Origin: a virus
IMG/VR virus record: IMGVR_UViG_3300043446_002610
Span: 1-31,075 of that record
Strand: one strand, 5' to 3'
DNA: 31,075 nucleotides
Shown: positions 9,062 through 30,399 of the stretch, piece after piece
Numbering within the stretch: the stretch's first letter is position 1
Layout of the letters: each line of letters opens with the position of its first letter
The notes under the pieces: generated by a model
Seen by the model: the letters and a program-made list of their open reading frames with translations, nothing else
What the model was told of the DNA's origin: nothing
Database searches by the model: none
Program-made: the position numbers and the translations under genes

Positions 9062-9337
9062 ATGAATAAACGAACAGAAGAAGCAATGGGCATTCTGCAA
9101 GAAGAATGCGCCGAAGTCATTGTGGAAGTCAGTAAGTGTAGAAGATTTGGCATTGACACAAATCATTATAAGACAGGCCTGGCACATAAAACTATGTTAG
9201 AAAACGAAATTGGTGATGTACTAGCACTGGTTGACATTCTATTAGAAGAAGGTATAATTACCGAACAAGGTCTTGCCAAAGCAAAGCAAGCCAAAAAAGA
9301 TAAACTATCAGTATGGTCAAATTTATATGAAACTTAA
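9062..9337 (+). CDS. MazG-like nucleotide pyrophosphohydrolase
   Basis: 91 residues from the ATG at 9062; an in-frame TTG at 9041 is less likely. The metal-binding pattern is clear: LQEECAEVIVEVSK (Glu14, Glu15, Glu18) and LENEIGDVLALVDIL (Glu47/Glu49, Asp52), the EExxE...ExxD layout of single-domain MazG enzymes. These hydrolyse (d)NTPs to monophosphates and pyrophosphate; phage versions may clear modified or competing nucleotides or alter host alarmones. Its 3' end overlaps the queE start by 11 bases. Confidence 0.88.
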   Translation: MNKRTEEAMGILQEECAEVIVEVSKCRRFGIDTNHYKTGLAHKTMLENEIGDVLALVDILLEEGIITEQGLAKAKQAKKDKLSVWSNLYET

Positions 9338-14920: not shown

Positions 14921-14949
14921 TTGCTGGAAATTCTTGTTTTTGCTATAAT
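14921..14949 (+). promoter_or_regulatory. AATTC-box promoter before gene 14982
   Basis: TTGCTG (14921-14926), 17-base spacer, TATAAT (14944-14949) with an extended -10 (TGC just before). The spacer starts GAAATTC, sharing the AATTC box with four other promoters of this module. Confidence 0.65.
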
Positions 14950-14979
14950 TATGGCATAGGTTAACAAAACAGGAGTTGA
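14938..14979 (+). repeat. Promoter/leader direct repeat, copy 1
   Basis: This 42-base stretch (extended -10, leader and SD) matches 15439-15480 with four mismatches and no gaps, both ending AACAAAACAGGAGTTGA. It looks like duplication of a regulatory unit in front of two unrelated genes. Confidence 0.8.
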
Positions 14980-15411: not shown

Positions 15412-15424
15412 CAAGTAGTACTTG
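15412..15424. promoter_or_regulatory. Small inverted repeat at a -35 box
   Basis: CAAGT-AGT-ACTTG, perfect 5-base arms, overlaps the first bases of the -35 (15422-15427). It could be a small operator half-site or chance. Confidence 0.2.
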
Positions 15425-15450
15425 TTCGAAATTCCCAATTTTGCTATAAT
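15422..15450 (+). promoter_or_regulatory. AATTC-box promoter before gene 15482
   Basis: TTGTTC (15422-15427), 17-base spacer beginning GAAATTC, extended -10 TGC-TATAAT (15442-15450). Same layout as the promoter at 14921. Confidence 0.65.
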
Positions 15451-15480
15451 AATGGCATACAGTAACAAAACAGGAGTTGA
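15439..15480 (+). repeat. Promoter/leader direct repeat, copy 2
   Basis: Second copy of the 42-base leader unit of 14938-14979 (38 of 42 identical), leading into the ATG at 15482. Confidence 0.8.
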
Positions 15481-16063: not shown

Positions 16064-17176
16064 ATGTCGAAAGACTCTGGTATGACTGAGAATCGCACTG
16101 TAACGGCACTGACCGCTCGTCGGGCCATTATGAAGTGTTTTAAGAAACAACGACCCCTGTTCCTGTGGGGTCCTCCGGGTATTGGTAAGAGTGAGCTGGT
16201 AGCCAGTATTGCCAAGGACATGGGCGGTTTGATGATCGACCTTCGTTTGGCACAGATGGAACCCACTGACCTGCGTGGTATTCCTTATTATAACAAGGAC
16301 AATGGTTTGATGGATTGGGCTCCTCCCATTGACTTGCCCAGCGAAGATCTGGCCAAACAATATCCTGTTATTTGTCTGTTCCTTGATGAAATGAACAGTG
16401 CGGCACCCAGTATTCAAGCTGCTGCTTATCAGCTGGTTTTGAATCGTCGCATTGGCAAGTATACACTGCCCGACAATGTGGTTGTGATTGCCGCTGGTAA
16501 CCGTGAGTCAGACAAAGGCGTTACTTTCCGCATGCCTGCTCCGTTGGCTAACCGCTTCGTCCACTTGGAAATGCGAGTTGATCACGAATCTTGGGAACAA
16601 TGGGCTACCCTTAACAAGATCAATTCTGAAGTGGTTGGTTACATTGGTTTCGCCAAACAGGATCTCTACGATTTTGATCCCCGTAGTTCCAGTCGTGCTT
16701 TTGCTACTCCTCGCTCTTGGACTTTTGTCAGCGAGCTGCTAGAGGACGATGACTGTACTGACAGTGAACTGACCGATTTGATCTCAGGTGCAGTGGGTGA
16801 AGGTGTTGCAATTAAGTTTATGGCACATCGTAAGGTTGCTGGACAACTGCCCAAGCCTGCAGACATTTTGGCAGGCAAAGTCACTGACCTTAAAGTTAAA
16901 GAAGTTTCAGCCATGTACTCGCTGACTGTGAGTCTTTGCTATGAACTTCAAGACTACATTCAAAGTGTCAAAGGCAAGCCTGACGAGAAATTCCATACCA
17001 TGGCGGATAATTTCTTCCGTTACATGATGGATAATTTTACTACTGAATTGACTGTCATGGGTGCTCGTGTTGCGCTGACTACTTACAACCTGCCGTTTGT
17101 TCCTGGCAAACTCAAACACTTTGATGAGTTCCATAAGCGGTTCGGTAAGTACATTGTGGCTGCTAACAGCAAGTAA
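16064..17176 (+). CDS. MoxR-type AAA+ ATPase
   Basis: 370 residues, SD AAAGGAG. LFLWGPPGIGKSEL (Walker A, residues 33-45), CLFLDEMNSA (Walker B, Asp108/Glu109), VIAAGNRESD (sensor 1, Asn146) and a MoxR-like MPAPLANRFVHLEM arginine-finger region. MoxR ATPases work with VWA-domain proteins to remodel or activate substrates. The VWA partner is the next large gene, after one LRW-family gene, so the three may form a unit. The last 100 residues are helical (DYIQSVKGKPDEKFHTMADNFF). Confidence 0.93.
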   Translation: MSKDSGMTENRTVTALTARRAIMKCFKKQRPLFLWGPPGIGKSELVASIAKDMGGLMIDLRLAQMEPTDLRGIPYYNKDNGLMDWAPPIDLPSEDLAKQYPVICLFLDEMNSAAPSIQAAAYQLVLNRRIGKYTLPDNVVVIAAGNRESDKGVTFRMPAPLANRFVHLEMRVDHESWEQWATLNKINSEVVGYIGFAKQDLYDFDPRSSSRAFATPRSWTFVSELLEDDDCTDSELTDLISGAVGEGVAIKFMAHRKVAGQLPKPADILAGKVTDLKVKEVSAMYSLTVSLCYELQDYIQSVKGKPDEKFHTMADNFFRYMMDNFTTELTVMGARVALTTYNLPFVPGKLKHFDEFHKRFGKYIVAANSK

Positions 17177-17241: not shown

Positions 17242-17535
17242 ATGACCGTCAAGTGTGTTGAACTGGATTGGCGATACAAAGGGGCACGCCATTTTGCATA
17301 CAGGATTGAAATTCTTAAGCCAGCAGCAGAAAGAATTCCTTTATTTGCTGAATTACTTAAATGGTGCGTGGCCACTTGGGACATGAGTGTGCCCATTGAC
17401 ATGTACAAAACGGATTTGAAGTTTGAAAGAAATCCGCATTGGGCATGGAGTGAAGGCACCAATGACTGGGACGGTCTTTATATCTATCTTGCTACTGACA
17501 AAGAACGAGAATTATTCACTTTACGATGGTTGTAA
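17242..17535 (+). CDS. LRW-family small protein, isolated first copy
   Basis: 97 residues, with its own SD (aagga). It shows the family plan: FAELLKWCVATWDM (W-C helix), an aromatic middle (NPHWAWSEGTNDWDGLYIYL) and the end DKERELFTLRWL. It sits alone between the MoxR-type and VWA genes, so the family is tied to that pair by position. The terminal Arg codon is CGA, and the next gene has its own promoter. Confidence 0.8.
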   Translation: MTVKCVELDWRYKGARHFAYRIEILKPAAERIPLFAELLKWCVATWDMSVPIDMYKTDLKFERNPHWAWSEGTNDWDGLYIYLATDKERELFTLRWL

Positions 17536-17548
17536 TACTTTGTTATTA

Positions 17549-17577
17549 ATGACAATAATTCAAATTTCTGCTATAAT
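17549..17577 (+). promoter_or_regulatory. AATTC-box promoter before the VWA gene and array
   Basis: ATGACA (17549-17554), 17-base spacer beginning ATAATTC, extended -10 TGC-TATAAT (17569-17577). No other convincing promoter is seen until 26311, so this one may drive the whole VWA-array transcript of about 8.7 kb. Confidence 0.65.
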
Positions 17578-17600: not shown

Positions 17601-18893
17601 ATGGCTACATCAGACAGTAAACAAAAGAACATTGGCGGCAGACTAACCGACAATACTGACCCCTCTCTGGACCGTGCAGTGCGTGAAAAATTGACCACAG
17701 CTCGTATTGGTCTTCTACTCAAAGCACCGTTTTTTGGTAACCTTGCTACTCGCTTGCAATTGGTTAATGCTGACACTTGGTTGACCACTGCAGCCACTGA
17801 CGGTCGCAAGTTCTATTACAATACTGACTTTGTCAACAAACTCAAACCCAAAGAGCTCGAGTTCTTGTTTGGACACGAAGTTCTGCACAATGTCTATGAC
17901 CATATGGGTCGTAACGGTGACCGTGACCGCAGGCTGTTTAATTGTGCTGCTGACTTCTGTGTCAATGCAGATTTGATTGAACAACGAATTGGTGACAAGA
18001 TCACTCCCTGTCTTTATGACGCCAAGTACAAGGGCTGGTCGGCTGAAGAAGTCTACGATGACCTTTACGAAAACGCTGAAAAGATTGACATCGGCGACCT
18101 GCTGGATCAATTGCTAGATGAGCACTTGGATGGCGACGGCGAAGGCGACGGCGAAGGCGACGGTGATGGCAAAGACGGCGACCAAGAAGGCAACGGCCGG
18201 GGTCGTCCCCGTCTCAGCGAAGAAGAACGACAGGCCATCAAAGATGAAGTTCGCGAAGCACTGTTACAGGCCGCACAGGCCACTGGTGCTGGTAACTTGC
18301 CAGCAGGTGTTAAGCGACTGATTAAAGACTTGACCCAGCCTGTGGTTAATTGGCGTGAACTTTTGGAGCAACAAATCCAAAGTACCGTTAAAAACGACTT
18401 TACTTGGATGCGTCCCAGCCGTCGTAGTTGGCACTTGGATGCTGTGATGCCTGGTATGATCCCGGGTCAACAGATTGATGTTTGCATTGCCATTGACACT
18501 TCGGGTTCTATTGGTGAAGAAGACATCAAAGCATTCATGGCTGAGATCAAAGGCATCATGGAAGCCTACGATGAGTATAAACTGCAAGTGTGGAGTTTTG
18601 ACACTGAAATTTACAATCATCAGGTCTTTAGCAGTGACACGCTGGATGACATCATGACTTATCAACCCGAAGGTGGTGGCGGTACTGACTTCATGGCCAA
18701 TTGGGAATACATGAAGGCTAATGATATTCAGCCCAAAAAGTTCATTATGTTCACCGACGGTATGCCTTTTGGTGAATGGGGCGATCCTGAATACTGTGAC
18801 ACGGTGTTCATTATCAAGGGCAATGAACAGGCTGAACCGCCTTTTGGTGTTTGGGCTATCTACGAGCGTGCCAAGGCCTTGGCCAAGGCCTAA
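17601..18893 (+). CDS. Metallopeptidase-like/VWA protein (DUF2201-like), MoxR partner
   Basis: 430 residues. The N-terminal part holds a zincin-like helix, FLFGHEVLHNVYDH (His92, Glu93, His96), as in the DUF2201 metallopeptidase-like domain, followed by RLFNCAADFCVNADL. A Gly/Asp/Glu-rich linker spans about residues 175-200. The C-terminal part is a VWA-like domain with MIDAS motif AIDTSGSIGEED (Asp299, Ser301, Ser303), GGGGTDF near 361 and FTDGMPFGEW near 384. Such proteins bind substrates for MoxR ATPases. It ends TAATG, coupled to the array. Confidence 0.9.
   Translation: MATSDSKQKNIGGRLTDNTDPSLDRAVREKLTTARIGLLLKAPFFGNLATRLQLVNADTWLTTAATDGRKFYYNTDFVNKLKPKELEFLFGHEVLHNVYDHMGRNGDRDRRLFNCAADFCVNADLIEQRIGDKITPCLYDAKYKGWSAEEVYDDLYENAEKIDIGDLLDQLLDEHLDGDGEGDGEGDGDGKDGDQEGNGRGRPRLSEEERQAIKDEVREALLQAAQATGAGNLPAGVKRLIKDLTQPVVNWRELLEQQIQSTVKNDFTWMRPSRRSWHLDAVMPGMIPGQQIDVCIAIDTSGSIGEEDIKAFMAEIKGIMEAYDEYKLQVWSFDTEIYNHQVFSSDTLDDIMTYQPEGGGGTDFMANWEYMKANDIQPKKFIMFTDGMPFGEWGDPEYCDTVFIIKGNEQAEPPFGVWAIYERAKALAKA
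18132..18170 (+). repeat. 12-base coding tandem repeat in the VWA linker
   Basis: GGCGACGGCGAA occurs twice in a row plus degenerate copies, coding for alternating Gly-Asp/Gly-Glu. It is G/C-rich compared with the surroundings and may change length by slippage, which would vary linker length. Confidence 0.7.
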
Positions 18894-19159
18894 TGCTGGC
18901 ATTCTTTGACTTTGGCGGCAACCCGATGCGTAAACTGTATCGTATACTGCAACATTCAAAGCAACCTTTTACGGTCACAGTGACCTTTTATGTGCCTGAC
19001 ACTTCAAAGCCACAGATCTACAATCAGTCCATAGAAGATGTAATTGATGAAATGGTTGCTTGGTGTCAAGACCGTGACTGTGGTCGCAGGGTAGCTTATG
19101 ACATGTTTACATTTCGTAATAGGCCTGAACTGTCAATGTTTTTATTGAGATGGGCATGA
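18893..19159 (+). CDS. LRW-family small protein
   Basis: 88 residues from the ATG that shares a base with the VWA stop (TAATG); an internal ATG at 18926 is possible. IEDVIDEMVAWCQDRDCG is the W-C helix, and RNRPELSMFLLRWA the end. The N-terminal half is a likely strand pair (FTVTVTFYVPDT). The link with the VWA gene makes it the first array member to be translated. Confidence 0.8.
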   Translation: MLAFFDFGGNPMRKLYRILQHSKQPFTVTVTFYVPDTSKPQIYNQSIEDVIDEMVAWCQDRDCGRRVAYDMFTFRNRPELSMFLLRWA

Positions 19160-19356
19160 AATATTGGAACAAGAAAAAGATTGAAAGAAGTCAATGGACT
19201 CGTATTACGGTATCTTCTAATGACTACAACAAAGAAAGATTCTTATGGTGCCAGCGTCAAGAAAGTACTGGAAGATTTTACAGATATTACGGAAATTCTA
19301 CCTGGTGGTTTGAACATAAAGAAGATGCTGTAATGTTTGCGTTGAGATGGGCATGA
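19156..19356 (+). CDS. LRW-family small protein
   Basis: 66 residues, ATGA start. Very basic N-terminus (KYWNKKKIERSQW), core KERFLWCQRQESTGRFYRYYG, end HKEDAVMFALRWA. This is one of the shortest and simplest members, close to a minimal form of the family. Confidence 0.8.
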   Translation: MKYWNKKKIERSQWTRITVSSNDYNKERFLWCQRQESTGRFYRYYGNSTWWFEHKEDAVMFALRWA

Positions 19357-19643
19357 AAAAGAAACGGTTGTTAACTGATAAATCAGGTATGCTACAAGAA
19401 CAGATGCTAGCAAGCATAGTCCAAGAATATGCCAATGAAGTTGATACCCAAGTATTATTTGACATGTTAGAAGAAATTGGTTGGATAAGAGTGGTTTGCA
19501 AAACACCCTTGCTAACAAAACAAAGGCAGGAAATTGATACATGGATCAAAGACAATGTCAAAGGCCACATAGAAAATCGTGGGCCAACTTGGATGTTTGA
19601 AGACAGCAAAGATGCATGTGCATTTATTTTGAAATGGACTTAA
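19353..19643 (+). CDS. LRW-family protein with extra N-terminal helix
   Basis: 96 residues, ATGA start. Residues 1-40 form an added helical part (LQEQMLASIVQEYANEVDTQVLFDMLEEIGW) not present in its neighbours. Core EIDTWIKDNVKGHIENRG has I in place of C/L after the Trp; end DSKDACAFILKWT. Lys codon AAA at the end; the next gene is not a family member. Confidence 0.8.
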   Translation: MKKKRLLTDKSGMLQEQMLASIVQEYANEVDTQVLFDMLEEIGWIRVVCKTPLLTKQRQEIDTWIKDNVKGHIENRGPTWMFEDSKDACAFILKWT

Positions 19644-19644
19644 A

Positions 19645-19983
19645 ATGAACTGTAAAATTTTAATGGTCGTCGCAAGTGTGCTGATTGGTGGTTGCAGCAC
19701 TATTCCTGCTCAAACTGTTGAAAGTTGGGAATATGTACCCGAACCAATTCAAGTTCAAAAACGCAGAGATCAAACTCGCAGTATTAATTGGTTGCAAGTG
19801 CCTAACGATCAACTGCAACAGATTTGCGAACGAGTTACCAAAGGTAGATTTGGAAATAAAAAGATTGCAGGCTGTGCATCTTGGGTTGGCAATAACTGCA
19901 CAGTAATTACTGGCATGAATACCACAACCAGTAATTTAGGTCATGAAATTAGACACTGCTATGACTACGACTTCCACGACTAA
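19645..19983 (+). CDS. Predicted lipoprotein with HExxH zinc motif
   Basis: 112 residues, not in the LRW family. A hydrophobic signal with lipobox (VLIGGCS, Cys17) predicts signal peptidase II processing and lipid anchoring. The C-terminus has LGHEIRHCYDYDFHD, a zinc protease-like helix (His100, Glu101, His104; Asp107 or His111 as third ligand). Two further Cys pairs may form disulfides. It would act in the periplasm, perhaps on cell wall or envelope during infection or lysis. I recall similar small lipoproteins in phages and bacteria. Why it is inside the array is unknown. Confidence 0.8.
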   Translation: MNCKILMVVASVLIGGCSTIPAQTVESWEYVPEPIQVQKRRDQTRSINWLQVPNDQLQQICERVTKGRFGNKKIAGCASWVGNNCTVITGMNTTTSNLGHEIRHCYDYDFHD

Positions 19984-20173
19984 AGAACCGCATAAAAGGT
20001 TGTACAGGTTACCTCAACAGAGTTTTGAGTCTGCTAAAAATATTTTAGACTGGTGTACAGCAACATTTGGCCCAAGACGGTATGGCGGTCCTTGGGAATA
20101 TAACGCCGTTTACCACGATGTTGTTATCTACGGCGACAAAAATATTATGTTGTTTGAACTGCGATGGCTTTAA
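19961..20173 (+). CDS. LRW-family small protein
   Basis: 70 residues; the ATG at 19961 overlaps the lipoprotein gene by 23 bases and there is an upstream in-frame ATG at 19943. Thr-rich start, core FESAKNILDWCTATFG, middle GGPWEYNAVYHDVVIY, end DKNIMLFELRWL. The Arg codon is CGA because the next ATG (cgATGG) is formed by it. Confidence 0.75.
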   Translation: MTTTSTTKEPHKRLYRLPQQSFESAKNILDWCTATFGPRRYGGPWEYNAVYHDVVIYGDKNIMLFELRWL

Positions 20174-20400
20174 CATACATACATCAGAGCCAACTGCGGC
20201 GTTTGGTCAAGGCTCACAATCCCGAGATCGTCAGCAATCACGATCAAGACTTCACTGAGTGGATGGAACAGAATGTGGGAGTATTCACCCAGGACTGGGG
20301 CCGCATCTACTATCTCGATCAAGCACAATCTACCTACGGCACCACTTGGTGGGTGTTAGATCCTGCCAAAGCAACACTGACATTGCTGAGGTGGTCATGA
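20164..20400 (+). CDS. LRW-family small protein
   Basis: 78 residues. Its ATG is built from the Arg-Trp codons of the gene before (10-base overlap). Core DFTEWMEQNVGVF (M after Trp), middle WGRIYYLDQAQSTYG, end DPAKATLTLLRWS, with Leu-Thr instead of the usual Leu-Phe. The terminal codons give GAGGTGG for the next gene. Confidence 0.8.
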   Translation: MALTYIHQSQLRRLVKAHNPEIVSNHDQDFTEWMEQNVGVFTQDWGRIYYLDQAQSTYGTTWWVLDPAKATLTLLRWS

Positions 20401-20618
20401 GAAACACAGTAGTGGTTCCAATGAAACATAGATTTGTCTATGATCAAAAAGGCAGCCCTGTCTGGTGGCAGTGGTGTATAGAAACGCTGGGACCTCCAAA
20501 CAACAGTCAGTGGGGTATTCCTGCCAGCCAACACTATTGGAGATTGGAATCCAGTGGTGCCGCTATATGGTTCGCCAATCCTGCCCATGCAACTTTGTTT
20601 GCCTTGAGGTGGTCATGA
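20397..20618 (+). CDS. LRW-family small protein
   Basis: 73 residues, ATGA start. Core SPVWWQWCIETLGPP with three Trp, middle QWGIPASQHYWRLES, end NPAHATLFALRWS. It has the same length and layout as the next member but little identity outside the core. Confidence 0.8.
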   Translation: MRNTVVVPMKHRFVYDQKGSPVWWQWCIETLGPPNNSQWGIPASQHYWRLESSGAAIWFANPAHATLFALRWS

Positions 20619-20842
20619 TTAAACGACTGCCTTATGGTGTACAAACTGATAAAAAGATTTTGCATCGAGCCGAACCATGGTGTAGAGACCAGTGGGGGCA
20701 AAGATGGGACCCGGTACTCAATCGTGCAGGTACTTGGTGTGTATTTTGGGGAGGTAACAGTGTGACAATGATACCTTATCATTATCAATGGTGGTTTGCA
20801 ACTGAACCACAACAAACATTGTTTATGTTGAGGTGGTCATGA
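20615..20842 (+). CDS. LRW-family small protein
   Basis: 75 residues, ATGA start. Core RAEPWCRDQWGQRWDP, a glycine/Trp-rich middle (GTWCVFWGGNSV), end EPQQTLFMLRWS. Seven Trp in 75 residues is unusual even for this family. Confidence 0.8.
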   Translation: MIKRLPYGVQTDKKILHRAEPWCRDQWGQRWDPVLNRAGTWCVFWGGNSVTMIPYHYQWWFATEPQQTLFMLRWS

Positions 20843-21027
20843 GAATTTTTCAAGTTCCTGGATATCCGCGTAGTCATTATTTTGTAAAAACATTTGATGA
20901 ACTTTTGCAAATTGTGTCTTGGTCGAATAAGAACAATGTCGATATGTTGCACGAATCTAGTACCATACACGGATACGGGTTCAGCATTAAACAAAACTTT
21001 GAATGGTTTGCACTGAAGTGGTTATGA
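20839..21027 (+). CDS. LRW-family small protein, divergent core
   Basis: 62 residues, ATGA start; the shortest member. The core LLQIVSWSNKNNVDM has Ser after Trp. End QNFEWFALKWL. Terminal Lys codon AAG leaves a weaker SD (GAAGTGG) for the next gene. Confidence 0.78.
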   Translation: MRIFQVPGYPRSHYFVKTFDELLQIVSWSNKNNVDMLHESSTIHGYGFSIKQNFEWFALKWL

Positions 21028-21215
21028 AACTTCCAAGAAATCCTGTAAACGGCTGGGTTGTTGCAAGTGTGCAAAGTCCTGAATTAAACAGTTGGTTACT
21101 GTGTTGTAACTGGTGTAGATCTAATTTCAAGCACGCAAATTGGCGTTATGTAGGTGCAGGTGTATTTGAGTTTAGGCGAGTAGACGATTACATGATGTTT
21201 ATGTTGAGGTGGTAA
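21024..21215 (+). CDS. LRW-family small protein ending at Trp
   Basis: 63 residues, ATGA start. Core LLCCNWCRSNFKHANWRY, end VDDYMMFMLRW: the stop follows the Trp directly, since the final Ser/Ala codon is replaced by TAA that forms TAATG with the next gene. The end residue is therefore not strictly needed by the family. Confidence 0.8.
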   Translation: MKLPRNPVNGWVVASVQSPELNSWLLCCNWCRSNFKHANWRYVGAGVFEFRRVDDYMMFMLRW

Positions 21216-21442
21216 TGAATCACTTACCTCGCAAAGGCCAATACGAATTGTTTACATTTAACCATAAGACCTATTCGTTTGACGACCCAACATTTGGTTC
21301 AGATCCGGCTATAATTAATGCACCGACCAAGATGTTTGAATGGCTAAGAGCACAACCAGAATGCAGGCCGTTGGGCGAATGCAATACAGCCTACTATCTT
21401 ACACCGAAACTGTACTTAATATGGAAGTTGAAATGGACATAA
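21215..21442 (+). CDS. LRW-family small protein, variant end
   Basis: 75 residues, TAATG start. Core PTKMFEWLRAQPECRP, end PKLYLIWKLKWT, where Ile-Trp-Lys replaces Leu-Phe-x. The N-terminal part (YELFTFNHKTYSFDDPTFG) looks like a beta-hairpin. Lys codon AAA creates the ATGG start of the next gene. Confidence 0.75.
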   Translation: MNHLPRKGQYELFTFNHKTYSFDDPTFGSDPAIINAPTKMFEWLRAQPECRPLGECNTAYYLTPKLYLIWKLKWT

Positions 21443-21657
21443 AAAACTGGGCTACTATCCCCCGAAGAAATGCTGAGCCAGCATTGGCTTGGGCCCGGAT
21501 GCGTTGCAACACTTACATTACCAACGACTACAGTGTTGAGGGTGGGAGAATAGATGCATATGAAGCCGGAGATGACTTCGAGTATGTTGATTTCTTTTTC
21601 AGTGACACCGAACAGGGTCACAAGGAAATGACTATGTTCATGTTGAGGTGGGCGTGA
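21433..21657 (+). CDS. LRW-family small protein
   Basis: 74 residues from the ATG at 21433, set within the Lys-Trp codons of the previous gene (10-base overlap; ATG 21421 would add four residues). Core AEPALAWARMRCNTY has Ala after Trp; the middle is acidic (DDFEYVDFFFSDTE), end HKEMTMFMLRWA. Confidence 0.75.
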   Translation: MDIKNWATIPRRNAEPALAWARMRCNTYITNDYSVEGGRIDAYEAGDDFEYVDFFFSDTEQGHKEMTMFMLRWA

Positions 21658-21863
21658 GATACTTAGTGAAAGATAAACTTGTCAAATACCCGCCAGCACT
21701 GACACCAGATGATATACAGACTTCAACAATGTATCAGGTTTACAATTGGTGTAGACAAGAATTCGGCGATGATGAGCGGCGAGGTAGGTGGGCGTTTTAT
21801 TCAACTTACTGGAGTTTTCGTGATGAAAAAGATTATGTTTTGTTTATGTTGAGGTGGTCATAA
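21654..21863 (+). CDS. LRW-family small protein, GTG start
   Basis: 69 residues, starting at a GTGA overlap, with GAGGTGG as SD. Core QVYNWCRQEFGDDERRGRWAF, end DEKDYVLFMLRWS. This is a near-consensus member with no insertions. Confidence 0.8.
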   Translation: MRYLVKDKLVKYPPALTPDDIQTSTMYQVYNWCRQEFGDDERRGRWAFYSTYWSFRDEKDYVLFMLRWS

Positions 21864-22123
21864 TGGTAGCAAACACACATCCTCCGCCGCCTAACCCGAA
21901 AACGCTGGCCAATCAGTGGTTGTGGGACTACAATCCTGGTCGCCAGCGTTGGGAAACTTATCGTCAGCCAGCAAACTGGCCGTTTGGCTTGTATGGTTGG
22001 TTGCGTGAAGCGTTTGGCAATCCTCTGTCAGAAGATCCCAACAGTGAGTGGGACTACACCGGTGGGCATATCTACTTGTATCGCGAAGACTATGTAACGG
22101 CATTTGCATTGAAGTGGTCATGA
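21863..22123 (+). CDS. LRW-family protein, Pro-rich start
   Basis: 86 residues, TAATG start. Starts with a Pro-rich run (THPPPPNPK), then WLWDYNPGRQRWETY, core FGLYGWLREAFGNPL, end REDYVTAFALKWS. The Pro-rich run may be flexible or exposed. Confidence 0.78.
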   Translation: MVANTHPPPPNPKTLANQWLWDYNPGRQRWETYRQPANWPFGLYGWLREAFGNPLSEDPNSEWDYTGGHIYLYREDYVTAFALKWS

Positions 22124-22344
22124 ACACAATCAAATTTCCAAAACTGCATCGTGTTATCTACGCTCACACCACAAATGGAGTACGGGCAGCGTACCAAAGA
22201 AGTTACAAGGACCATTTGGTGGATGCTTGGCTTAAAGAAAACTGCCACAATCCTTACTATCACAGTCCCGGGTATCTTGAAGAAAAGTTCATTGAGTTTG
22301 AATGTGACGAGGACGCTGTGTTGTTTGCGTTGAGGTGGGCATAG
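22120..22344 (+). CDS. LRW-family small protein
   Basis: 74 residues, ATGA start. Core HLVDAWLKENCHNPY, strand EEKFIEFEC, end DEDAVLFALRWA. Its stop is TAG and overlaps a GTG (TAGTG), unlike other junctions. Confidence 0.8.
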   Translation: MNTIKFPKLHRVIYAHTTNGVRAAYQRSYKDHLVDAWLKENCHNPYYHSPGYLEEKFIEFECDEDAVLFALRWA

Positions 22345-22601
22345 TGTGGCAATTAGCAAGGCATCGTATGTTGCATGACCGTTATATGAATTTACATCAA
22401 GGAATGGTTGTAGCAGTTGAGCATGACTGGATCAAAACATTTGCCCTACTGCCACACAAAACAATTGGCAACAAATATGTATGGTTGAAAAAAATATATG
22501 TTCGCAGAGTATGGGTATATACTGGCTTTATAGACGAACCCGAAACACAATATGCTGAACTTTTTGACATTCTTCAAGACCAAGTACAAAGCTTACTGTG
22601 A
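22344..22601 (+). CDS. Conserved phage hypothetical, not LRW family
   Basis: 85 residues from the GTG at 22344, with GAGGTGG upstream (an in-frame GTG at 22335 is possible). No LRW end. HDWIKTFALLPHKTIGNKYVWLKKIYVRRVWVYTGFIDEPETQYAELFDIL resembles a beta-rich phage protein I recall (FxxLPxxxxxGxxVWLxxxYVR...TGF...YxxLFDIL). Function unknown. It may be a cargo gene caught in the array. Confidence 0.65.
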   Translation: MWQLARHRMLHDRYMNLHQGMVVAVEHDWIKTFALLPHKTIGNKYVWLKKIYVRRVWVYTGFIDEPETQYAELFDILQDQVQSLL

Positions 22602-22980
22602 TGAACGCACTCTAAAAAAGAGTGGGTTTAGTTCTTGGAAAGCTTACCATCAATGGCATGATCCCGATGTGCAGCAAGGGGCTACGATAATTAAAGATTT
22701 TTATCACGGCTACCCCTTTGTATATGTCTGTGACAACTACAACCACTACTGTTATAAATTACTAGCAGACTATGGACCCGGTGGTCAACGATATGGTATG
22801 CACGATATTCAGGATTGGCTTACAGACAATCACTCCAACAAAGTGCGTTGGGAAATGCATCGTGTCATATATGGTCGTTATCATGGTTGGGAAATAAATG
22901 AAATAGGCGGCGGAGACTATATGTTTTTTGCTTTTAAAAATGAACAAGATTATGCTATGTTTATGTTGAGGTGGTCATAA
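22552..22980 (+). CDS. Long LRW-family protein with extra domain
   Basis: 142 residues, the longest member. The ATG at 22552 lies 50 bases inside the previous gene with no clear SD, so the start is uncertain. The N-terminal part (CDERTLKKSGFSSWKAYHQWHDPD, then IKDFYHGYPFVYVC) is a segment I recall in other phage LRW-ended proteins. Core DIQDWLTDNHSNKVRW, then NEIGGGDYMFFAFKNEQDYAMFMLRWS. It may show the ancestral full-length form. Confidence 0.78.
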   Translation: MLNFLTFFKTKYKAYCDERTLKKSGFSSWKAYHQWHDPDVQQGATIIKDFYHGYPFVYVCDNYNHYCYKLLADYGPGGQRYGMHDIQDWLTDNHSNKVRWEMHRVIYGRYHGWEINEIGGGDYMFFAFKNEQDYAMFMLRWS

Positions 22981-23240
22981 TGGAAATTGAAGAATTAGCC
23001 AGAATGTGCAGTCGTCAATGGATCGGGGATAGTCCGGTAGGGTATCTATCAGGAGAGGCAAGATTTATAACAGGGGATCATTACACTGACTTACATTTAG
23101 ACCAATTAGAAAAGAAATATGGTCTAAGAGTTATAATGACCGCTGTTGCTGACCCCTATGGTCGAAAGAAATATAAGATTAAAAATTATGAAATCTTAGA
23201 CGAAAAAAAGTTTTTGATGTTCATGTTGAGGTGGTCATAA
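22980..23240 (+). CDS. LRW-family protein, divergent core
   Basis: 86 residues, TAATG start. The core Trp is lost (HLDQLEKKYGLRV occupies its place), middle GRKKYKIKNYEIL, end DEKKFLMFMLRWS with a perfect terminus. The end is thus kept more strictly than the core helix. Confidence 0.75.
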   Translation: MEIEELARMCSRQWIGDSPVGYLSGEARFITGDHYTDLHLDQLEKKYGLRVIMTAVADPYGRKKYKIKNYEILDEKKFLMFMLRWS

Positions 23241-23482
23241 TGGTGTATTCAGTATTGTTATTTGAACACGATTCTGAAAAAGAAATTCCCCATTGGTGGC
23301 GGAATTTTTGTAAACACTCTGTTGATGACATAGACGGAGTAAACGAACAACTGTTGGAATACTCTGCTCATTTTGTCTGTATGACAGAGCGCAAGGAAAA
23401 AGGACCAAGACAATTTGGCAAACGCTATATTGATTTCTATGACGAACAAGCGTATACTTGGTTTGTATTGAGGTGGTCATGA
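23240..23482 (+). CDS. LRW-family small protein
   Basis: 80 residues, TAATG start. Acidic; core EIPHWWRNFCKHSVDDID with Trp-Trp and a Cys shifted two residues later. End DEQAYTWFVLRWS. The basic middle (TERKEKGPRQFGKRY) contrasts with the acidic start. Confidence 0.78.
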   Translation: MVYSVLLFEHDSEKEIPHWWRNFCKHSVDDIDGVNEQLLEYSAHFVCMTERKEKGPRQFGKRYIDFYDEQAYTWFVLRWS

Positions 23483-23796
23483 TAACTAGTATTTGGTACG
23501 ACAGTGAAGATAAATTACCTGAAAAAGAAGGTTATTATCTTGGCTACAAAAAACCTACTTTGGGCGACGACGAGGAAGGATTTGGTTTATATTATTGGGG
23601 AACTTATTATCGTCAGTGGCGTGAAAATATATCTACTCATTCGCCAACAATTTTTATAAGTTTTTGGTGTGAACCTCCTGATATAAAATATCCTATGAGT
23701 CAGATATTGATGCCCACTGATGCAGAAATAGATGCTTGGAAAAATGTACAAGATGCTATTTCAAAATACAACATGATCAAAAATTTAGTGCAATGA
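23479..23796 (+). CDS. DUF551-like phage protein, not LRW family
   Basis: 105 residues, ATGA start at 23479. SIWYDSEDKLPEKEGYYLGYKKP followed by TIFISFWCEPP matches the DUF551 layout (W...DxLPExxGxYL...xxxHWxPLPxPP), found in many phages with unknown role. The last 35 residues form a helical extension. Its insertion keeps the coupling pattern on both sides. Confidence 0.75.
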   Translation: MITSIWYDSEDKLPEKEGYYLGYKKPTLGDDEEGFGLYYWGTYYRQWRENISTHSPTIFISFWCEPPDIKYPMSQILMPTDAEIDAWKNVQDAISKYNMIKNLVQ

Positions 23797-24173
23797 GTAA
23801 ATTTGAAATTCACAGCTTATATAAATTGCCGTCAGGTCAATACTTGCCCACAGGACTTAATATCTGGCAAAAACTTTGGTGGCAATTTATTCCTGGTGTT
23901 GTTATTAAAGTTAAATGGCCCCGGGGCAACATTGTAGTTGATCACAACGATCCCAGATGGCGAGATATAGGCGGTGCTGTTTGGGTAGATCTAGGATTTA
24001 GTGCAGATCCCAATGATCATTACCGTTGGTATTTGGAAAAACATGTGGGTCGACAAGGGTGGGATTGGAATTGGGGACTAGCAGATCGGGACGCTACCGA
24101 CGATTGCCTTACCATAAAGATTAGACGAAAATATGCTGACCATGCTACAATAATGGTATTGCAGTGGAGTTAA
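23793..24173 (+). CDS. Long LRW-family protein with altered end
   Basis: 126 residues, ATGA start. An added N-terminal domain (LPSGQYLPTGLNIWQKLWWQFIPGVVIKVKWP) precedes the family part: HYRWYLEKHVGRQGWDWNWG, then YADHATIMVLQWS, with Gln for Arg. Trp-rich throughout. The end codon CAG-TGG forms the GTG start of the next gene. Confidence 0.75.
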   Translation: MSKFEIHSLYKLPSGQYLPTGLNIWQKLWWQFIPGVVIKVKWPRGNIVVDHNDPRWRDIGGAVWVDLGFSADPNDHYRWYLEKHVGRQGWDWNWGLADRDATDDCLTIKIRRKYADHATIMVLQWS

Positions 24174-24388
24174 CTTTGGGTAATCATATATTTGTTCAAA
24201 AAGGTCGTGTGGCACTTGTGGGCGATGAGCGTGATGTTGCTGTAAAAAGTCAGCATCGTATGGCAGTATGGGAATGGTGCGACAAAAATAAAATTAAATT
24301 GGAATACCAAGGTACACTAGACAGAACAGACTTATGGCGTGTAAAAGATGACCAACAGCGTAGCTGGTTTATTTTGAGGTGGGCATGA
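24164..24388 (+). CDS. LRW-family small protein
   Basis: 74 residues from a GTG inside the previous Gln-Trp codons (10-base overlap); a TTG at 24176 is an alternative. Core MAVWEWCDKNKIKLEYQG, end DQQRSWFILRWA. The N-terminal half resembles a short beta-sheet (HIFVQKGRVALVGDE). Confidence 0.75.
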   Translation: MELTLGNHIFVQKGRVALVGDERDVAVKSQHRMAVWEWCDKNKIKLEYQGTLDRTDLWRVKDDQQRSWFILRWA

Positions 24389-24681
24389 AAGGTCCTGTTA
24401 AGATTTTAGGACATACTGTTCCCTTGATCAATAAAAAACAGCCAGAAACTTGGCAGTCATACCTGCGTAGACTGGGCAATGGTATCAATGGCATCGCAGA
24501 AAGAAGCAAAACAATTACCGAAGAGCAAATCGTAGCCAACGCATATAAATGGATGCAGATCAAATATCCTGGTGCCTACACCGTAGAGCAGTTTTACAAT
24601 GCTGACAAAATGAAATGGGATCTGCGATTAAAGTTTGAAGATGCTCAAGAAGAAACTATGTGGTTATTGAGGTGGTCATGA
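24385..24681 (+). CDS. LRW-family protein
   Basis: 98 residues, ATGA start. Basic N-terminal helix region (TWQSYLRRLGNGINGIAERSKT), core NAYKWMQIKYPGAYT, strand WDLRLKFED, end AQEETMWLLRWS. The helical N-terminus is not shared with its direct neighbours. Confidence 0.78.
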   Translation: MKGPVKILGHTVPLINKKQPETWQSYLRRLGNGINGIAERSKTITEEQIVANAYKWMQIKYPGAYTVEQFYNADKMKWDLRLKFEDAQEETMWLLRWS

Positions 24682-24884
24682 GAGAACTTCGCAAAGATCT
24701 TTGGCCTTACAAAGTTACAGTCAACAGTGATTGGAAGAACGATATCACACCTGTAGAAGTTTGGTTAGGTGAACAGCTGGGCACTTTTAAAGGCCGTTGG
24801 AATGTTGTTTATAGGCATAATCGTACTGATTTTTATTTTAGATTCAGCCATGATGCTACATTATTTGCATTAAAGTGGTCATGA
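24678..24884 (+). CDS. LRW-family small protein
   Basis: 68 residues, ATGA start. Core PVEVWLGEQLGTFKGRWNVVY, strand FYFRF, end SHDATLFALKWS. A compact near-consensus member; its codons TTA-AAG-TGG leave a poorer SD than most junctions. Confidence 0.8.
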   Translation: MRELRKDLWPYKVTVNSDWKNDITPVEVWLGEQLGTFKGRWNVVYRHNRTDFYFRFSHDATLFALKWS

Positions 24885-25165
24885 AAGTTAAAGATACACT
24901 AACAATTGATTTAGTGCGTGCCTCCCTGCGTGAAAAGGCCCGCGAGTTTGCTCCAGCGGCACTATGGGAGAAGCCTGCAAGTAACGCTAACATTAGTTAC
25001 ATAAAACAAACTTATCCAAATTGGCAGTACAACGGTGTAGATAGTTTTCAAAATGTAATGCTATGGTGCGAAGAACATCTTGGCAACAACTGGATTTGGA
25101 ACATGGAAACAATTTACTTTAAAACCGAACAACATAAACTGTTATTTTTATTGAGGTGGTCGTGA
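24881..25165 (+). CDS. LRW-family protein
   Basis: 94 residues, ATGA start. A 45-residue helical lead (IDLVRASLREKAREFAPAALW) precedes NWQYNGVDSFQNVMLWCEEHLGNNWIW and the end QHKLLFLLRWS. The core is close to consensus. Confidence 0.8.
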   Translation: MKVKDTLTIDLVRASLREKAREFAPAALWEKPASNANISYIKQTYPNWQYNGVDSFQNVMLWCEEHLGNNWIWNMETIYFKTEQHKLLFLLRWS

Positions 25166-25455
25166 TTAACCGTAAACAATTTCTACAACTGTTTAATAAT
25201 AACAGAAACGGTTTAGGCGATTGGGACAGTCCCTTATGGTTACCAGAACAGTATAATAACCATAAACCCAGTAGATGGTTTGTAAATATTAGACCCTTAA
25301 ATCGTCAAAACTTTAAGACAGAATTTTGGGCATGGGTAAATAAAACCTGCCGAGGTCAAGTTTTATGCTATAGTAGCAGCAATGAGAAACAAGAAGAATG
25401 GTGGGGATTTACACACCGCGACGATATTGTTTTATTTTTACTGAAGTGGAGTTAA
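25162..25455 (+). CDS. LRW-family protein, GTG start
   Basis: 97 residues, GTGA start. Asn-rich lead (LFNNNRNGLGDWDS), core FWAWVNKTCRG (V after Trp), end HRDDIVLFLLKWS. Followed by a two-base gap, not an overlap, before a non-family gene. Confidence 0.78.
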   Translation: MINRKQFLQLFNNNRNGLGDWDSPLWLPEQYNNHKPSRWFVNIRPLNRQNFKTEFWAWVNKTCRGQVLCYSSSNEKQEEWWGFTHRDDIVLFLLKWS

Positions 25456-25457
25456 TT

Positions 25458-25844
25458 ATGACTGATGATATCAATAATGTCAACAATTTCTGCAGAAAAT
25501 ACTATGCAACTGTGGGCCCTAACGGCAACTATCAGCGTAGAACACTGCAAGTTCCACTTAAACAAAATGCAGAATTTTACAACGACTTTGAATTAAGTTA
25601 TCGTAATATTCCAATGTTGAAAATAGTAATGCCCGAGGATAGCTTTGGATATTTGCTTGAGAGTCAAAATCATATTCAAACGCTTATAGGCAGAACTCCC
25701 GAGTCTTACTCGGGCCATATGTACAAAGACATTGCCATGCAGATTGTTGAACGCGAAGACGCAGAAATTAGACTGCGTAATCAACATCCAGGACTGAAAG
25801 ATCTTTATAACCAATATCAAATGATGTTGCATTTAGTACGATGA
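25458..25844 (+). CDS. Hypothetical protein, not LRW family
   Basis: 128 residues, ATG just past the previous stop. DDINNVNNFCRKYYATVGPNGNYQRRTLQVPL, then beta-rich LSYRNIPMLKIVMPEDSFGYLLESQ, and a helical end (AMQIVEREDAEIRLRNQHPGLKDLYNQYQMMLHLV). I recall similar C-termini (RNxxPxLKxLxxQYQxMLxL) in T4-like phage proteins. No end motif. The next member starts by ATGA. Confidence 0.7.
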   Translation: MTDDINNVNNFCRKYYATVGPNGNYQRRTLQVPLKQNAEFYNDFELSYRNIPMLKIVMPEDSFGYLLESQNHIQTLIGRTPESYSGHMYKDIAMQIVEREDAEIRLRNQHPGLKDLYNQYQMMLHLVR

Positions 25845-26065
25845 CTGATTTGTTTAACAATGCCAAAGACTATAAATTTTTGGTTGCGCCAAATTATCTT
25901 ACTGATCACGAGTTGTTGATCATACTGACTGACATAAAATTTTGGAATGAATACTACGATGATTTGGATACATGGTGTCGAGAAAATCGCAGTCAAAGAC
26001 AGGGCATGACTGTTGTCTTGCCTGATGCCGAAACACTAACATTATTTTGCCTACGATGGACATAA
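25841..26065 (+). CDS. LRW-family small protein
   Basis: 74 residues, ATGA start. Core YYDDLDTWCRENRSQRQG, strand MTVVLPD, end AETLTLFCLRWT. Acidic. The CGA-TGG codons form the ATG of the last member. Confidence 0.78.
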   Translation: MTDLFNNAKDYKFLVAPNYLTDHELLIILTDIKFWNEYYDDLDTWCRENRSQRQGMTVVLPDAETLTLFCLRWT

Positions 26066-26310
26066 TCATTAGTGAAGGCAAAGTGTTTGGCGCTCGTTAT
26101 CTAACAGCAGAACCTAGAGTGTCGTCATGGGATTTAGATGGTGACTGGGGAGGTATAAACATATGGGAACAAATGGAAGATTGGTGTACTGAAACATTTG
26201 GTGTATCAGAAGGTTCTTTTGAACCTAGTCAACGATGGTATTGTAATAGTGCAAGATTTTGGTTCAGAGAGAAAAAAGATTTAGAATGGTTTATTATGCG
26301 TTGGAGCTAA
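26056..26310 (+). CDS. LRW-family protein, last array member
   Basis: 84 residues from the ATG inside the previous Arg-Trp codons. Core NIWEQMEDWCTETFGVSEG, middle RWYCNSARFWFRE, end KKDLEWFIMRWS. Its Arg codon is CGT, with no SD-like terminus, and the gene is followed by a promoter rather than a coupled start. This fits the idea that AGG is kept only where a downstream start needs it. Confidence 0.78.
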   Translation: MDIIISEGKVFGARYLTAEPRVSSWDLDGDWGGINIWEQMEDWCTETFGVSEGSFEPSQRWYCNSARFWFREKKDLEWFIMRWS

Positions 26311-26339
26311 TTGACATAAATTCAATTTGGCTATATAAT
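26311..26339 (+). promoter_or_regulatory. Consensus AATTC-box promoter after the array
   Basis: TTGACA (26311-26316), 17-base spacer beginning TAAATTC, TATAAT (26334-26339): perfect consensus. It begins right after the array's last stop and precedes the SD (AAGGAG) of the next gene. Confidence 0.8.
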
Positions 26340-26355
26340 AAATCAAGGAGACTGT

Positions 26356-26649
26356 ATGAGCGACCCAGACGATAAATTTAAACACAGCAAACGATTGCAA
26401 AAAGAAGAAAATGCAATTCATCGTCAACAAAAGATTGCCAAAACACACGGAGCACCCGAACATGCCACAGAAGCACACAGATACAGTAAACATCATGCCA
26501 TGAACTGCGGTGATCCCAAGTGTATCATGTGCGGCAATCCTCGTAAAACTTTTAAACAATTAACAGCACAAGAACAAAGACTATTTCAAGACTTGGACCG
26601 CGAAACAGATCGAAAAAGCAACGGAATCAAACCCCAGGACGAACAATGA
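26356..26649 (+). CDS. Small conserved phage protein with possible Cys-x-metal site
   Basis: 97 residues, highly charged. EAHRYSKHHAMNCGDPKCIMCGNPRKTFKQLTAQEQRLF is a pattern I recall in many phages (HRYxKHHAxNCGxPKCxxCxNPRK). Three Cys plus His residues could bind zinc. The N-terminus is basic and helical. Role unknown. Start set by AAGGAG. The next gene follows by ATGA. Confidence 0.85.
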   Translation: MSDPDDKFKHSKRLQKEENAIHRQQKIAKTHGAPEHATEAHRYSKHHAMNCGDPKCIMCGNPRKTFKQLTAQEQRLFQDLDRETDRKSNGIKPQDEQ

Positions 26650-27116
26650 AAAAAATCTTTTATGAAAAAGTAGGCCGTAAGTATGTGCCAGTACAGGAGT
26701 ACGATGAATACCTCATTGACAGTTTCCCAAAAGGCAGTCATCTGGTCATGTGTTATCCTGCAGGTGAAAGTAGAGTTTATAATGTAGACCCTAACTATGC
26801 TGCTATGATTGCCGCCGGTCGTGTGGCTGCTGATGCTATGTGTCGGGCTATTGGAGAAGCCAGAGAAATGCAAAAAGAAAAATACGGTAATCGCGCCTTG
26901 ACCAATGAACAGTTAGCAGCATGGAATCATTTTATTGAAGTCATGGGCGAAAGCGGTCGTTTTATTCATTACAACAGCATTCGTGACATCGCTGAGGTTG
27001 GCATTAAAGCCTTAGAAGCCGAAGCTGTTAAGTTGATGCAACACGAAACAGTTCGTGCAGCCTATGAACAATTTTTAACTGTAGTTGAACTCTGTAAGGA
27101 GCAAAATCGTGCTTAA
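26646..27116 (+). CDS. Conserved phage hypothetical protein
   Basis: 156 residues, ATGA start. KKIFYEKVGRKYVPVQEYDEYLIDSFPKGSHLVMCYPAGESRVYNVDPNYAAMIAAGRVAADAM is a block I recall in phage genomes, followed by a long helical C-terminal part. It usually sits beside the preceding Cys-containing protein. No catalytic motif. Confidence 0.8.
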   Translation: MKKIFYEKVGRKYVPVQEYDEYLIDSFPKGSHLVMCYPAGESRVYNVDPNYAAMIAAGRVAADAMCRAIGEAREMQKEKYGNRALTNEQLAAWNHFIEVMGESGRFIHYNSIRDIAEVGIKALEAEAVKLMQHETVRAAYEQFLTVVELCKEQNRA

Positions 27117-29170: not shown

Positions 29171-30073
29171 ATGAAAACCTATTTAGATAGTATGAAATTT
29201 GTACTGAAAAACGGTACAACTAAAAGTGATCGCACGGGTGTTGGTACTATAAGTTATTTCGGTATGCAACAACGTTATGATCTTAGTCAAGGCTTCCCTG
29301 CTGTTACCACTAAAAAACTAGCTTGGAAGAGTGTAGTGTCAGAGTTGCTGTGGTTCATTGAAGGTTCAGGAGACGAACTACGCCTGCGAGAGATTTTATA
29401 TGGTAGCAGGACCTATGATAAGAGCACTATCTGGACTGCCAATGCCACAGCACCTTATTGGACCAAAAGATATAAAAAGTTTCCGCCTAAAGGTCCACAA
29501 CACGATGGAGATTTAGGTCGTGTATATGGAGTACAGTGGCGTCATTGGCGTACTCCCGAACGGACACTAAATGCTGCACAAAACAATCTTGTTAATGTAG
29601 AAGTAGATCAAATAAAACAATTGATCGAGGGCATCAAAGCAGACCCACACGGAAGACGACATATATTAACAGCATGGAATCCTGGTGAACTTCAGGACAT
29701 GGCCCTGCCTCCCTGTCACTGCTTTGCACAGTTTTATGTGGCAGATGGTAAGTTAAGTTGTCAAATGTACCAGCGTTCATGCGATATGTTTTTAGGCGTG
29801 CCTTTTAACATTGCATCATACTCACTGCTCACACACATGATTGCACAAGTGTGCGGATTAGGCGTAGGTGAGTTTGTTCATGTACTGGGTGATGCTCATA
29901 TATACAGCAACCATATAGAGCAAGTAAAAGAACAATTGCAACGGGAACCATTACCTGCTCCAACCCTTTGGTTAAATCCCGATATTAAGGACATTGATCA
30001 GTTTACAATGGCAGATATTAGACTAGACAACTATCAAAGTCACAGCGCAATCAAAGCAGAAATGGCGGTATAA
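29171..30073 (+). CDS. thyA: Thymidylate synthase (ThyA)
   Basis: 300 residues. Methylates dUMP to dTMP. SDRTGVGTISYFG, DLGRVYGVQWRHW, LPPCHCFAQFYV with catalytic Cys182, YQRSCDMFLGVPFNIASYSLL and LGDAHIYSNH are all present. Asn213 in GVPFNIASY is the residue that selects dUMP; phage dCMP or dUMP hydroxymethylases often have Asp there, so normal thymine is expected. The region near residues 80-110 (ILYGSRTYDKSTIW) carries a moderate insertion relative to E. coli. Confidence 0.96.
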   Translation: MKTYLDSMKFVLKNGTTKSDRTGVGTISYFGMQQRYDLSQGFPAVTTKKLAWKSVVSELLWFIEGSGDELRLREILYGSRTYDKSTIWTANATAPYWTKRYKKFPPKGPQHDGDLGRVYGVQWRHWRTPERTLNAAQNNLVNVEVDQIKQLIEGIKADPHGRRHILTAWNPGELQDMALPPCHCFAQFYVADGKLSCQMYQRSCDMFLGVPFNIASYSLLTHMIAQVCGLGVGEFVHVLGDAHIYSNHIEQVKEQLQREPLPAPTLWLNPDIKDIDQFTMADIRLDNYQSHSAIKAEMAV

Positions 30074-30399
30074 TGGCTTATACTGAACTTTATCCTAAAC
30101 CTTATCGATTAGAAAACAGTTTCAAAATAGAAAACAATCAAGTAGTTGAAACAAAAGAAATAGTTGTGCATACTTTTACAATTGGCGATGTTGAAGATCC
30201 AGAAATCTATGCAGCAGGTCCTTTGATTGATTGGGAAAAAAGTGAACAGGGTCAGTGGGTCATGCAACATGCTGTAGGACAACCTATGTGGCACAGAAAT
30301 AGAGATGTAGTACACTACGGTTTTAGTTTTGCTATTACTGCTAAACTCAAAGGTGCTGACATAAGTTATTTTATGCTTAAATGGGGTAATGCAAAGTGA
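30073..30399 (+). CDS. LRW-like phage protein next to thyA
   Basis: 108 residues, TAATG start with the thyA stop. LIDWEKSEQGQWVMQHAVGQPMWHR and VHYGFSFAITAKLKGADISYFMLKWGNAK form a family I recall in T4-like phages (W-x-x-SExGQWV...YGF...FxLKWG). The end FMLKWG is like the array end with a Gly, which suggests a distant shared fold. It lies outside the array and overlaps the next gene by GTGA. Confidence 0.75.
   Translation: MAYTELYPKPYRLENSFKIENNQVVETKEIVVHTFTIGDVEDPEIYAAGPLIDWEKSEQGQWVMQHAVGQPMWHRNRDVVHYGFSFAITAKLKGADISYFMLKWGNAK

Follow-up and report, generated by a model that had tools for sequence, protein, structure and literature searches.

Background

Phage islands for anti-defence and host takeover, such as the early ORFan regions of T4 and clusters of anti-CRISPR genes, hold small and variably present genes with few homologs outside phages. 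Such islands mix unrelated folds, whereas the row of genes that we describe here, at positions 18893 to 26310 of the IMG/VR virus record IMGVR_UViG_3300043446_002610, is filled by a single fold family; its members have no sequence or profile match to known defence-related families. The stretch analysed, which we refer to as the window, is the complete record of 31,075 bases and is itself a fragment of a phage genome.

Integrons offer a second comparison. As in an integron array, single-gene cassettes, one of each kind, follow one upstream promoter and are gained, lost and reordered by exchange at a short conserved junction. Unlike in integrons, the junction lies inside coding sequence (the last codons of one gene together with the Shine-Dalgarno sequence and start of the next), and almost every cassette codes for a member of one and the same protein family. 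Among the window genes read, which come from a 31-kb fragment, and the genes that recur beside other arrays we recognised no integrase, attI or attC; no dedicated integrase profile search was made.

Large arrays of very similar genes of the same family, attributed to tandem duplication, have been described in jumbo phages (Hua et al. 2017, PMC5646251), and phage G carries a zinc-ribbon expansion of roughly 35 copies (Iyer et al. 2021, PMC7824862). The window resembles the former in holding a large array of genes of one family; however, those arrays consist of very similar duplicates, whereas the members found here are divergent subfamilies that are shared between phages and reshuffled. Iyer et al. 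(2021, PMC7824862) also reported a MoxR-vWA pair from jumbo phages of group 2.2. Such a pair of MoxR AAA+ ATPase and vWA protein is the left neighbour of the window array, often with a solo family member, and most relatives of the pair are without an array. According to a 2026 review, it is plausible that many anti-defence proteins lie hidden among the small open reading frames (ORFs) of jumbo phages (PMC13282480). We found no description of the present family or array in open-licence papers.

A tandem array of divergent genes with a common end

All frames of both strands were scanned for ORFs of at least 45 amino acids ending in [LMVIF][RKQ]W plus zero to two residues. Twenty-five ORFs on the same strand at 18893-26310, and one more at 17242-17535, end in [LM]-[RKQ]-W followed by no more than one residue; on either strand, no ORF of this minimum size outside the array does so. 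The 15-base DNA junction TTGAGGTGGTCATGA occurs in 16 copies in the window (allowing up to two mismatches), compared with 0.13 expected. Scan and junction counts thus bear out the tandem array of 25 small genes, or 26 with gene 17242, given in a preliminary description made from the DNA letters. Neighbouring array genes overlap mostly by 1, 4 or 10 nt, and four genes inside the row lack the motif (Table 1).

The common end is less rigid than that description had it. A terminal [LM]-x-W is kept, but the residue before the last W is R in 19 of the 26 genes, K in six and Q in one, so that the end is L(R/K/Q)W and not strictly LRW. An F at position -4 is usual but not strict, being replaced by W, M or T in four genes; the gene at 20400, which ends in LLRWS, departs from the motif by a T. 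The final S, A, T or L is present as described, but is largely a result of the overlapping start codon of the next gene. The strong differences noted outside the ends were confirmed by a MAFFT alignment of the 26 proteins, with a mean column identity of 12%. So was the shared helix named after its W[C/L] signature: its invariant W, like the terminal W, is aligned in 26/26 proteins, gene 22980 being without the WC signature. Tryptophan makes up 6.1% of member residues (5.2% without the tail) and 2.1% of those in other window proteins.

With an iterative C-terminal profile, about 670 ORFs were brought together from 201 fetched loci; environmental phage contigs hold over 600 relatives. Two divergent members were modelled by AlphaFold2 with alignments of environmental homologs. 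The model of gene 26056 has the order beta-beta-alpha-beta-beta-alpha (predicted local distance difference test, pLDDT, 83.8; predicted template modelling score, pTM, 0.74) and that of gene 22980 the order alpha-alpha-beta-beta-alpha (pLDDT 80.3, pTM 0.63). Common to both is a predicted alpha-beta-beta-alpha core with the F-x-L-R-W end in its last helix, while the N-terminal part differs. The shared W signature, the profile and the core fold common to the two models indicate that the members form one protein family. That two such divergent members share a predicted core also disposes of the idea that the folds are unrelated and the ends match only through Shine-Dalgarno codons. When the models were compared with BFVD using Foldseek, only uncharacterised proteins of uncultured phages were clear matches. 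Three of these from uncultured Caudovirales (A0A6J5KVW6, A0A6J5L6V8 and A0A6J7WGK8) have the same predicted fold as the members (probability 1.00, query TM 0.71-0.74) but are unannotated, with no recorded function or array. Eight weak Pfam matches to LZ3wCH (best E 0.002) were judged spurious.

Whole genes change at the junctions

Related phage contigs and loci, designated here by L-numbers, were fetched for comparison. The number of motif genes in the slot between the VWA gene and gene 26356 is 25 for the window, 20 for both L004 and L007, nine for L008 and ten for L026; L009-L012, L024, L029 and L032 have none there, the gap measuring 6-71 bp. Gene order relative to the window is conserved in the nearest relative (tau 0.87), only weakly so in L008 (0.49) and L007 (0.36), and not at all in L026 (-0.2, from only five pairs). 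Genes at the edges tend to stay put (18893 at the left, 25458 and 25841 at the right). Among relatives, then, the slot is empty, filled or reordered, and does not hold one fixed array of orthologs.

The window and L004 have VWA proteins that are 98% identical, and the differences between the two are whole-gene changes. Gene 19156 is missing from L004, with an exact join across TTTTTATTGAGATGGGCATGAAA, and a four-gene and a two-gene difference likewise end at junctions. Across related contigs, 94 of the 127 unique alignment ends inside arrays lie within 20 nt of the stop of a motif gene, compared with 28% of random positions (binomial P = 8e-27, which ignores the relatedness of contigs and is a guide only). 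Precise indels numbered 26; in about 20 of them the repeat, 10-34 bp long, includes the LRW codons, W plus ATGA, or both, and the indel holds one to three whole motif genes. In the contigs compared, genes are present, absent or replaced exactly between junctions, and such differences show the unit of change to be one gene.

Two layers of constraint on the tail

The codons TTG AGG TGG TCA TGA, nearly identical from junction to junction, serve two genes: they close one and supply the Shine-Dalgarno sequence and start of its successor. Among loci chosen independently of the junction DNA pattern, AGG encodes 126 of the 181 Arg residues at coupled ends, against 83 of 839 in gene bodies. Uncoupled ends keep the motif with other codons (TTA CGA TGG in 17242, ATG CGT TGG in 26056), and in many relatives the solo orthologs between MoxR and VWA end in F-x-L-K-W, mostly with AAA codons. 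When environmental members were collected by a profile with the tail columns removed, the terminal W was present in 299 of 316 coupled and in 60 of 69 uncoupled members (87%). Since the end persists in proteins whose genes have no coupled successor, the terminal W and the hydrophobic residues preceding it are, on these counts, under constraint at the protein level. The preference for R, through AGG, and much of the final S or A are best ascribed to constraint at the DNA level. These results do not bear out a free recognition tag, as first proposed for this end: in the models the end forms part of the last core helix, and its DNA doubles as Shine-Dalgarno sequence and start and as exchange junction.

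Distribution among phages

A scan with the DNA pattern returned at least 118 stretches, and an independent protein query returned 50 loci, of which 49 were new. The window array is not unique in size: two other phage records, of 321 kb and 240 kb, hold 41 and 36 members respectively, in two arrays each. A terminase was found in five of the seven array-bearing relative records searched (239-339 kb), and the VWA protein is closest to those of cultured jumbo phages. To judge from these genes, the genome that hosts the array is that of a jumbo tailed phage, the window being a 31-kb fragment. No bacterial relatives were seen in a one-query contig scan, which leaves distant ones possible.

Single-protein tblastn against cultured phages proved too insensitive, and a profile search of whole records was needed. 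In whole cultured jumbo phages it gave about 19 matches, partly clustered, in Sinorhizobium phage Phosso, four weak ones in Atu_ph07 and one each in Pseudomonas phage MIJ3 and Salicola phage SCTP-2; Vibrio phage 2.275.O, 121Q, G and XbC2 had none (KM507819 and JN638751 were among the records searched). The Phosso members (e.g. XYS97803.1) have the same helix and an F-K-L-[RTAS]-[WF] end, as in the array family, but differ in a looser C-terminus (F-K-L-x-[WF]) and are annotated as hypothetical. The tRNA-rich regions of two Phosso loci (L271 and L272) encode many proteins annotated as hypothetical that have an F-K-L-x-[WF] end, and the family probably exceeds 19 there.

Promoters

A near-consensus sigma70 promoter with an extended -10 element precedes VWA and is kept in several relatives, and promoter-like matches inside the array are no commoner than in shuffled sequence; the row and VWA are therefore probably one transcript from a host-type promoter. 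A perfect sigma70 consensus promoter follows the array in the window, L004, L007 and L008. In the array-less L009, L012 and L032, a hairpin and T run lie after VWA and before the homolog of 26356, whereas array-bearing relatives have the promoter instead.

A proposed recombining cassette array, probably directed at the host

We interpret the locus as an expandable, recombining cassette array of a virus-specific small-protein family, probably serving host takeover or anti-defence, and give this reading a probability of roughly 55%. Each cassette would be one gene, encoding a variable N-terminal part, the alpha-beta-beta-alpha core and a C-terminal helix ending in F-x-L-[RK]-W. The C-terminal codons, Shine-Dalgarno sequence and next start would act as one element, and phage recombination between junction repeats would swap genes with frame, ribosome-binding site and translational coupling kept, so that cassettes could be gained, lost and reordered and still be translated. 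The outcome would be integron-like with no recognised integrase or attC. The row would be transcribed with VWA from one host-type sigma70 promoter, hence probably early. Each phage would hold a one-of-each sample from a shared pool, with one scaffold presenting different surfaces to different host targets, and the useful set would change with the host, a pattern that proteins for host takeover or anti-defence should show.

Gene-by-gene exchange is the well supported part of this proposal, from the contig comparisons; the host-takeover or anti-defence function of the members is one that we infer, and a changing anti-host repertoire is our best reading of it. A bolder formulation, to which we would give rather less than even odds, is a viral cassette system with the recombination site written into the protein itself, through which jumbo phages could hold up to about 40 anti-host proteins of one fold and many targets, drawn from a shared pool.

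These interpretations need to be weighed against several observations. Foldseek searches of the Protein Data Bank with both models gave no relative below E 0.001, Pfam, PHROGs and PADLOC gave no significant coherent match for members, and in profile searches members had no match to a characterised protein of anti-defence or takeover. Over the short distance between the window and L004, single genes showed no sign of positive selection. Early expression of the array is suggested by promoter consensus alone. Breakpoints could also lie at gene ends because selection has weeded out broken genes, and recombination at the junction repeats is therefore the probable rather than the observed mechanism. 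Many Phosso members are without a strict LRW end, and the family can thus exist without the junction.

Alternative explanations

For function, the most serious rival is that the members are adaptors or clients of a phage MoxR-vWA-peptidase machine, F-x-L-R-W being an AAA+ recognition signal to which the array supplies bodies. Many relatives, some with an empty slot, have a solo member placed between MoxR and VWA, and others have three to six members there. In the window the array directly adjoins VWA and probably shares its transcript. Roles in virion assembly and proteolysis have been proposed for such pairs (PMC7824862). However, MoxR or VWA occurs in the flank of only two or three of the DNA-pattern loci (flanks being limited), the tail is predicted to be folded in a helix, and the association stems partly from the use of VWA as search bait. 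We regard this role as unlikely, if worth keeping in view.

Less likely again is a structural or morphogenetic role, in which small proteins such as decoration or scaffolding proteins have been diversified for virion assembly. The small size and tryptophan richness of the members, and their place near a pair proposed for assembly, would fit. Arrays in other phages, however, commonly adjoin replication genes (polymerase, primase, DnaB helicase, exonuclease) rather than structural genes, and copy number varies from 0 to 41.

The junction might also make the cassettes selfish or neutral hitchhikers which persist because their insertion is harmless and which have no fixed function. High gain and loss, and the absence of the whole array in relatives, are in keeping with this. 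The pooled pN/pS (nonsynonymous to synonymous polymorphism) ratio of the array between the window and L004 is nevertheless 0.22, beside dN/dS (the corresponding substitution ratio) of 0.02 for MoxR and 0.05 for VWA, and divergent subfamilies are retained across many phages. Such ratios indicate that the array proteins are functional and under purifying selection, moderately relaxed, and we give hitchhiking a low probability. They also qualify the fast-evolving arsenal of the preliminary description: gene presence does change fast, but the genes themselves are under purifying selection.

Local tandem duplication of the phage G or 121Q type has a precedent (PMC5646251), and the tandem arrangement and two diverged copies of gene 25162 in L004 are what it would produce. 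Identity within the array is very low, however, and all 26 genes (26/26) have a better match in another phage than in their own array, with a bit score at least 30% higher, even when the near-identical L004 is left out; furthermore, the family profile has no match in 121Q and G yet 19 in Phosso. On the nearest-relative analysis we rejected local duplication as the origin of the array, leaving it only a slim chance.

Weakest of all, and very improbable, is a purely DNA-level effect, by which unrelated proteins would end alike as TTGAGGTGG is the next gene's Shine-Dalgarno sequence: most copies are coupled at the junction and AGG is strongly enriched there, but the common W helix and core fold, the W of uncoupled members found without those columns, and LRW or LKW retained, by way of CGA, CGT or AAA codons, at ends that no gene follows rule it out as the full explanation, and it holds as the second layer.

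Other features of the window

Coordinates are collected in Table 1. The passenger gene at 19645-19983 has a lipoprotein signal (VLIGGC), its GHEIRH resembles a metallopeptidase site, and it is kept in the L007 array with 53% identity. Outside the array, the protein of 30073-30399 ends in FMLKWGNAK and could belong to the family as a diverged, longer-tailed member; ortholog-like proteins adjoin arrays in L253 (5016-5294) and L255 (4132-4410). By eye, 1979-2722, 5244-5750, 6089-6709 and 9273-10178 resemble FolE, QueD, a queuosine-precursor transporter and QueE, look-alikes that suggest a 7-deazaguanine (preQ0) pathway for DNA or tRNA modification. A 59-bp stretch occurs at 14921-14979 and 15422-15480 (83% identical) and is possibly a small duplicated regulatory region. 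No tRNA or Rfam element was found in the window.

Table 1. Features in and around the array, in window coordinates
Feature	Position	Strand	Remarks
MoxR-type AAA+ ATPase, upstream neighbour	16064..17176	+	same pair as Atu_ph07 ASV44729.1/ASV44728.2 (PMC7824862)
Solo family member between MoxR and VWA, ends FTLRWL (TTA CGA TGG TTG TAA), no coupled downstream gene	17242..17535	+	orthologs in relatives with an array and with an empty slot end F-x-L-K-W
Sigma70-like promoter ATGACA-17-TATAAT, TGn extended, before VWA and array	17549..17577	+	conserved in L004, L005, L007-L011
VWA/metallopeptidase protein, left boundary of array slot	17601..18893	+	
Array gene 1 (LRWA)	18893..19159	+	
Array gene 2 (LRWA)	19156..19356	+	missing at that position in L004, exact junction-to-junction difference
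Array gene 3 (LKWT)	19353..19643	+	
Motif-less passenger gene	19645..19983	+	lipobox, GHEIRH
Array gene 4 (LRWL)	19961..20173	+	
Array gene 5 (LRWS)	20164..20400	+	
Array gene 6 (LRWS)	20397..20618	+	
Array gene 7 (LRWS)	20615..20842	+	
Array gene 8 (LKWL)	20839..21027	+	
Array gene 9 (LRW)	21024..21215	+	
Array gene 10 (LKWT)	21215..21442	+	genes 10-13 missing in L004
Array gene 11 (LRWA)	21433..21657	+	
Array gene 12 (LRWS)	21654..21863	+	
Array gene 13 (LKWS)	21863..22123	+	
Array gene 14 (LRWA)	22120..22344	+	
Motif-less passenger gene	22344..22601	+	
Array gene 15 (LRWS)	22552..22980	+	142 amino acids, N-terminal addition
Array gene 16 (LRWS)	22980..23240	+	modelled alpha-beta-beta-alpha core
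Array gene 17 (LRWS)	23240..23482	+	
Motif-less passenger gene	23479..23796	+	
Array gene 18 (LQWS)	23793..24173	+	126 amino acids
Array gene 19 (LRWA)	24164..24388	+	
Array gene 20 (LRWS)	24385..24681	+	
Array gene 21 (LKWS)	24678..24884	+	
Array gene 22 (LRWS)	24881..25165	+	
Array gene 23 (LKWS)	25162..25455	+	two diverged copies in L004
Motif-less passenger gene	25458..25844	+	
Array gene 24 (LRWT)	25841..26065	+	
Array gene 25 (MRWS, ATG CGT TGG AGC TAA, no coupled gene)	26056..26310	+	modelled beta-beta-alpha-beta-beta-alpha
Sigma70 consensus promoter TTGACA-17-TATAAT directly 3' of array	26311..26339	+	12/12 match also in L004, L007, L008
Two genes (26356-26649, 26646-27116), right boundary of slot	26356..27116	+	

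Implications

If the cassette reading is true, it would explain how some giant phages store and renew a large part of their small uncharacterised genes. The C-terminus of a protein, a ribosome-binding site and an exchange junction would then be one sequence under three pressures. The cultured phage Phosso makes the function testable, and the LRW end together with TTGAGGTGGTCATGA would be a ready marker for hundreds of candidate anti-host proteins.

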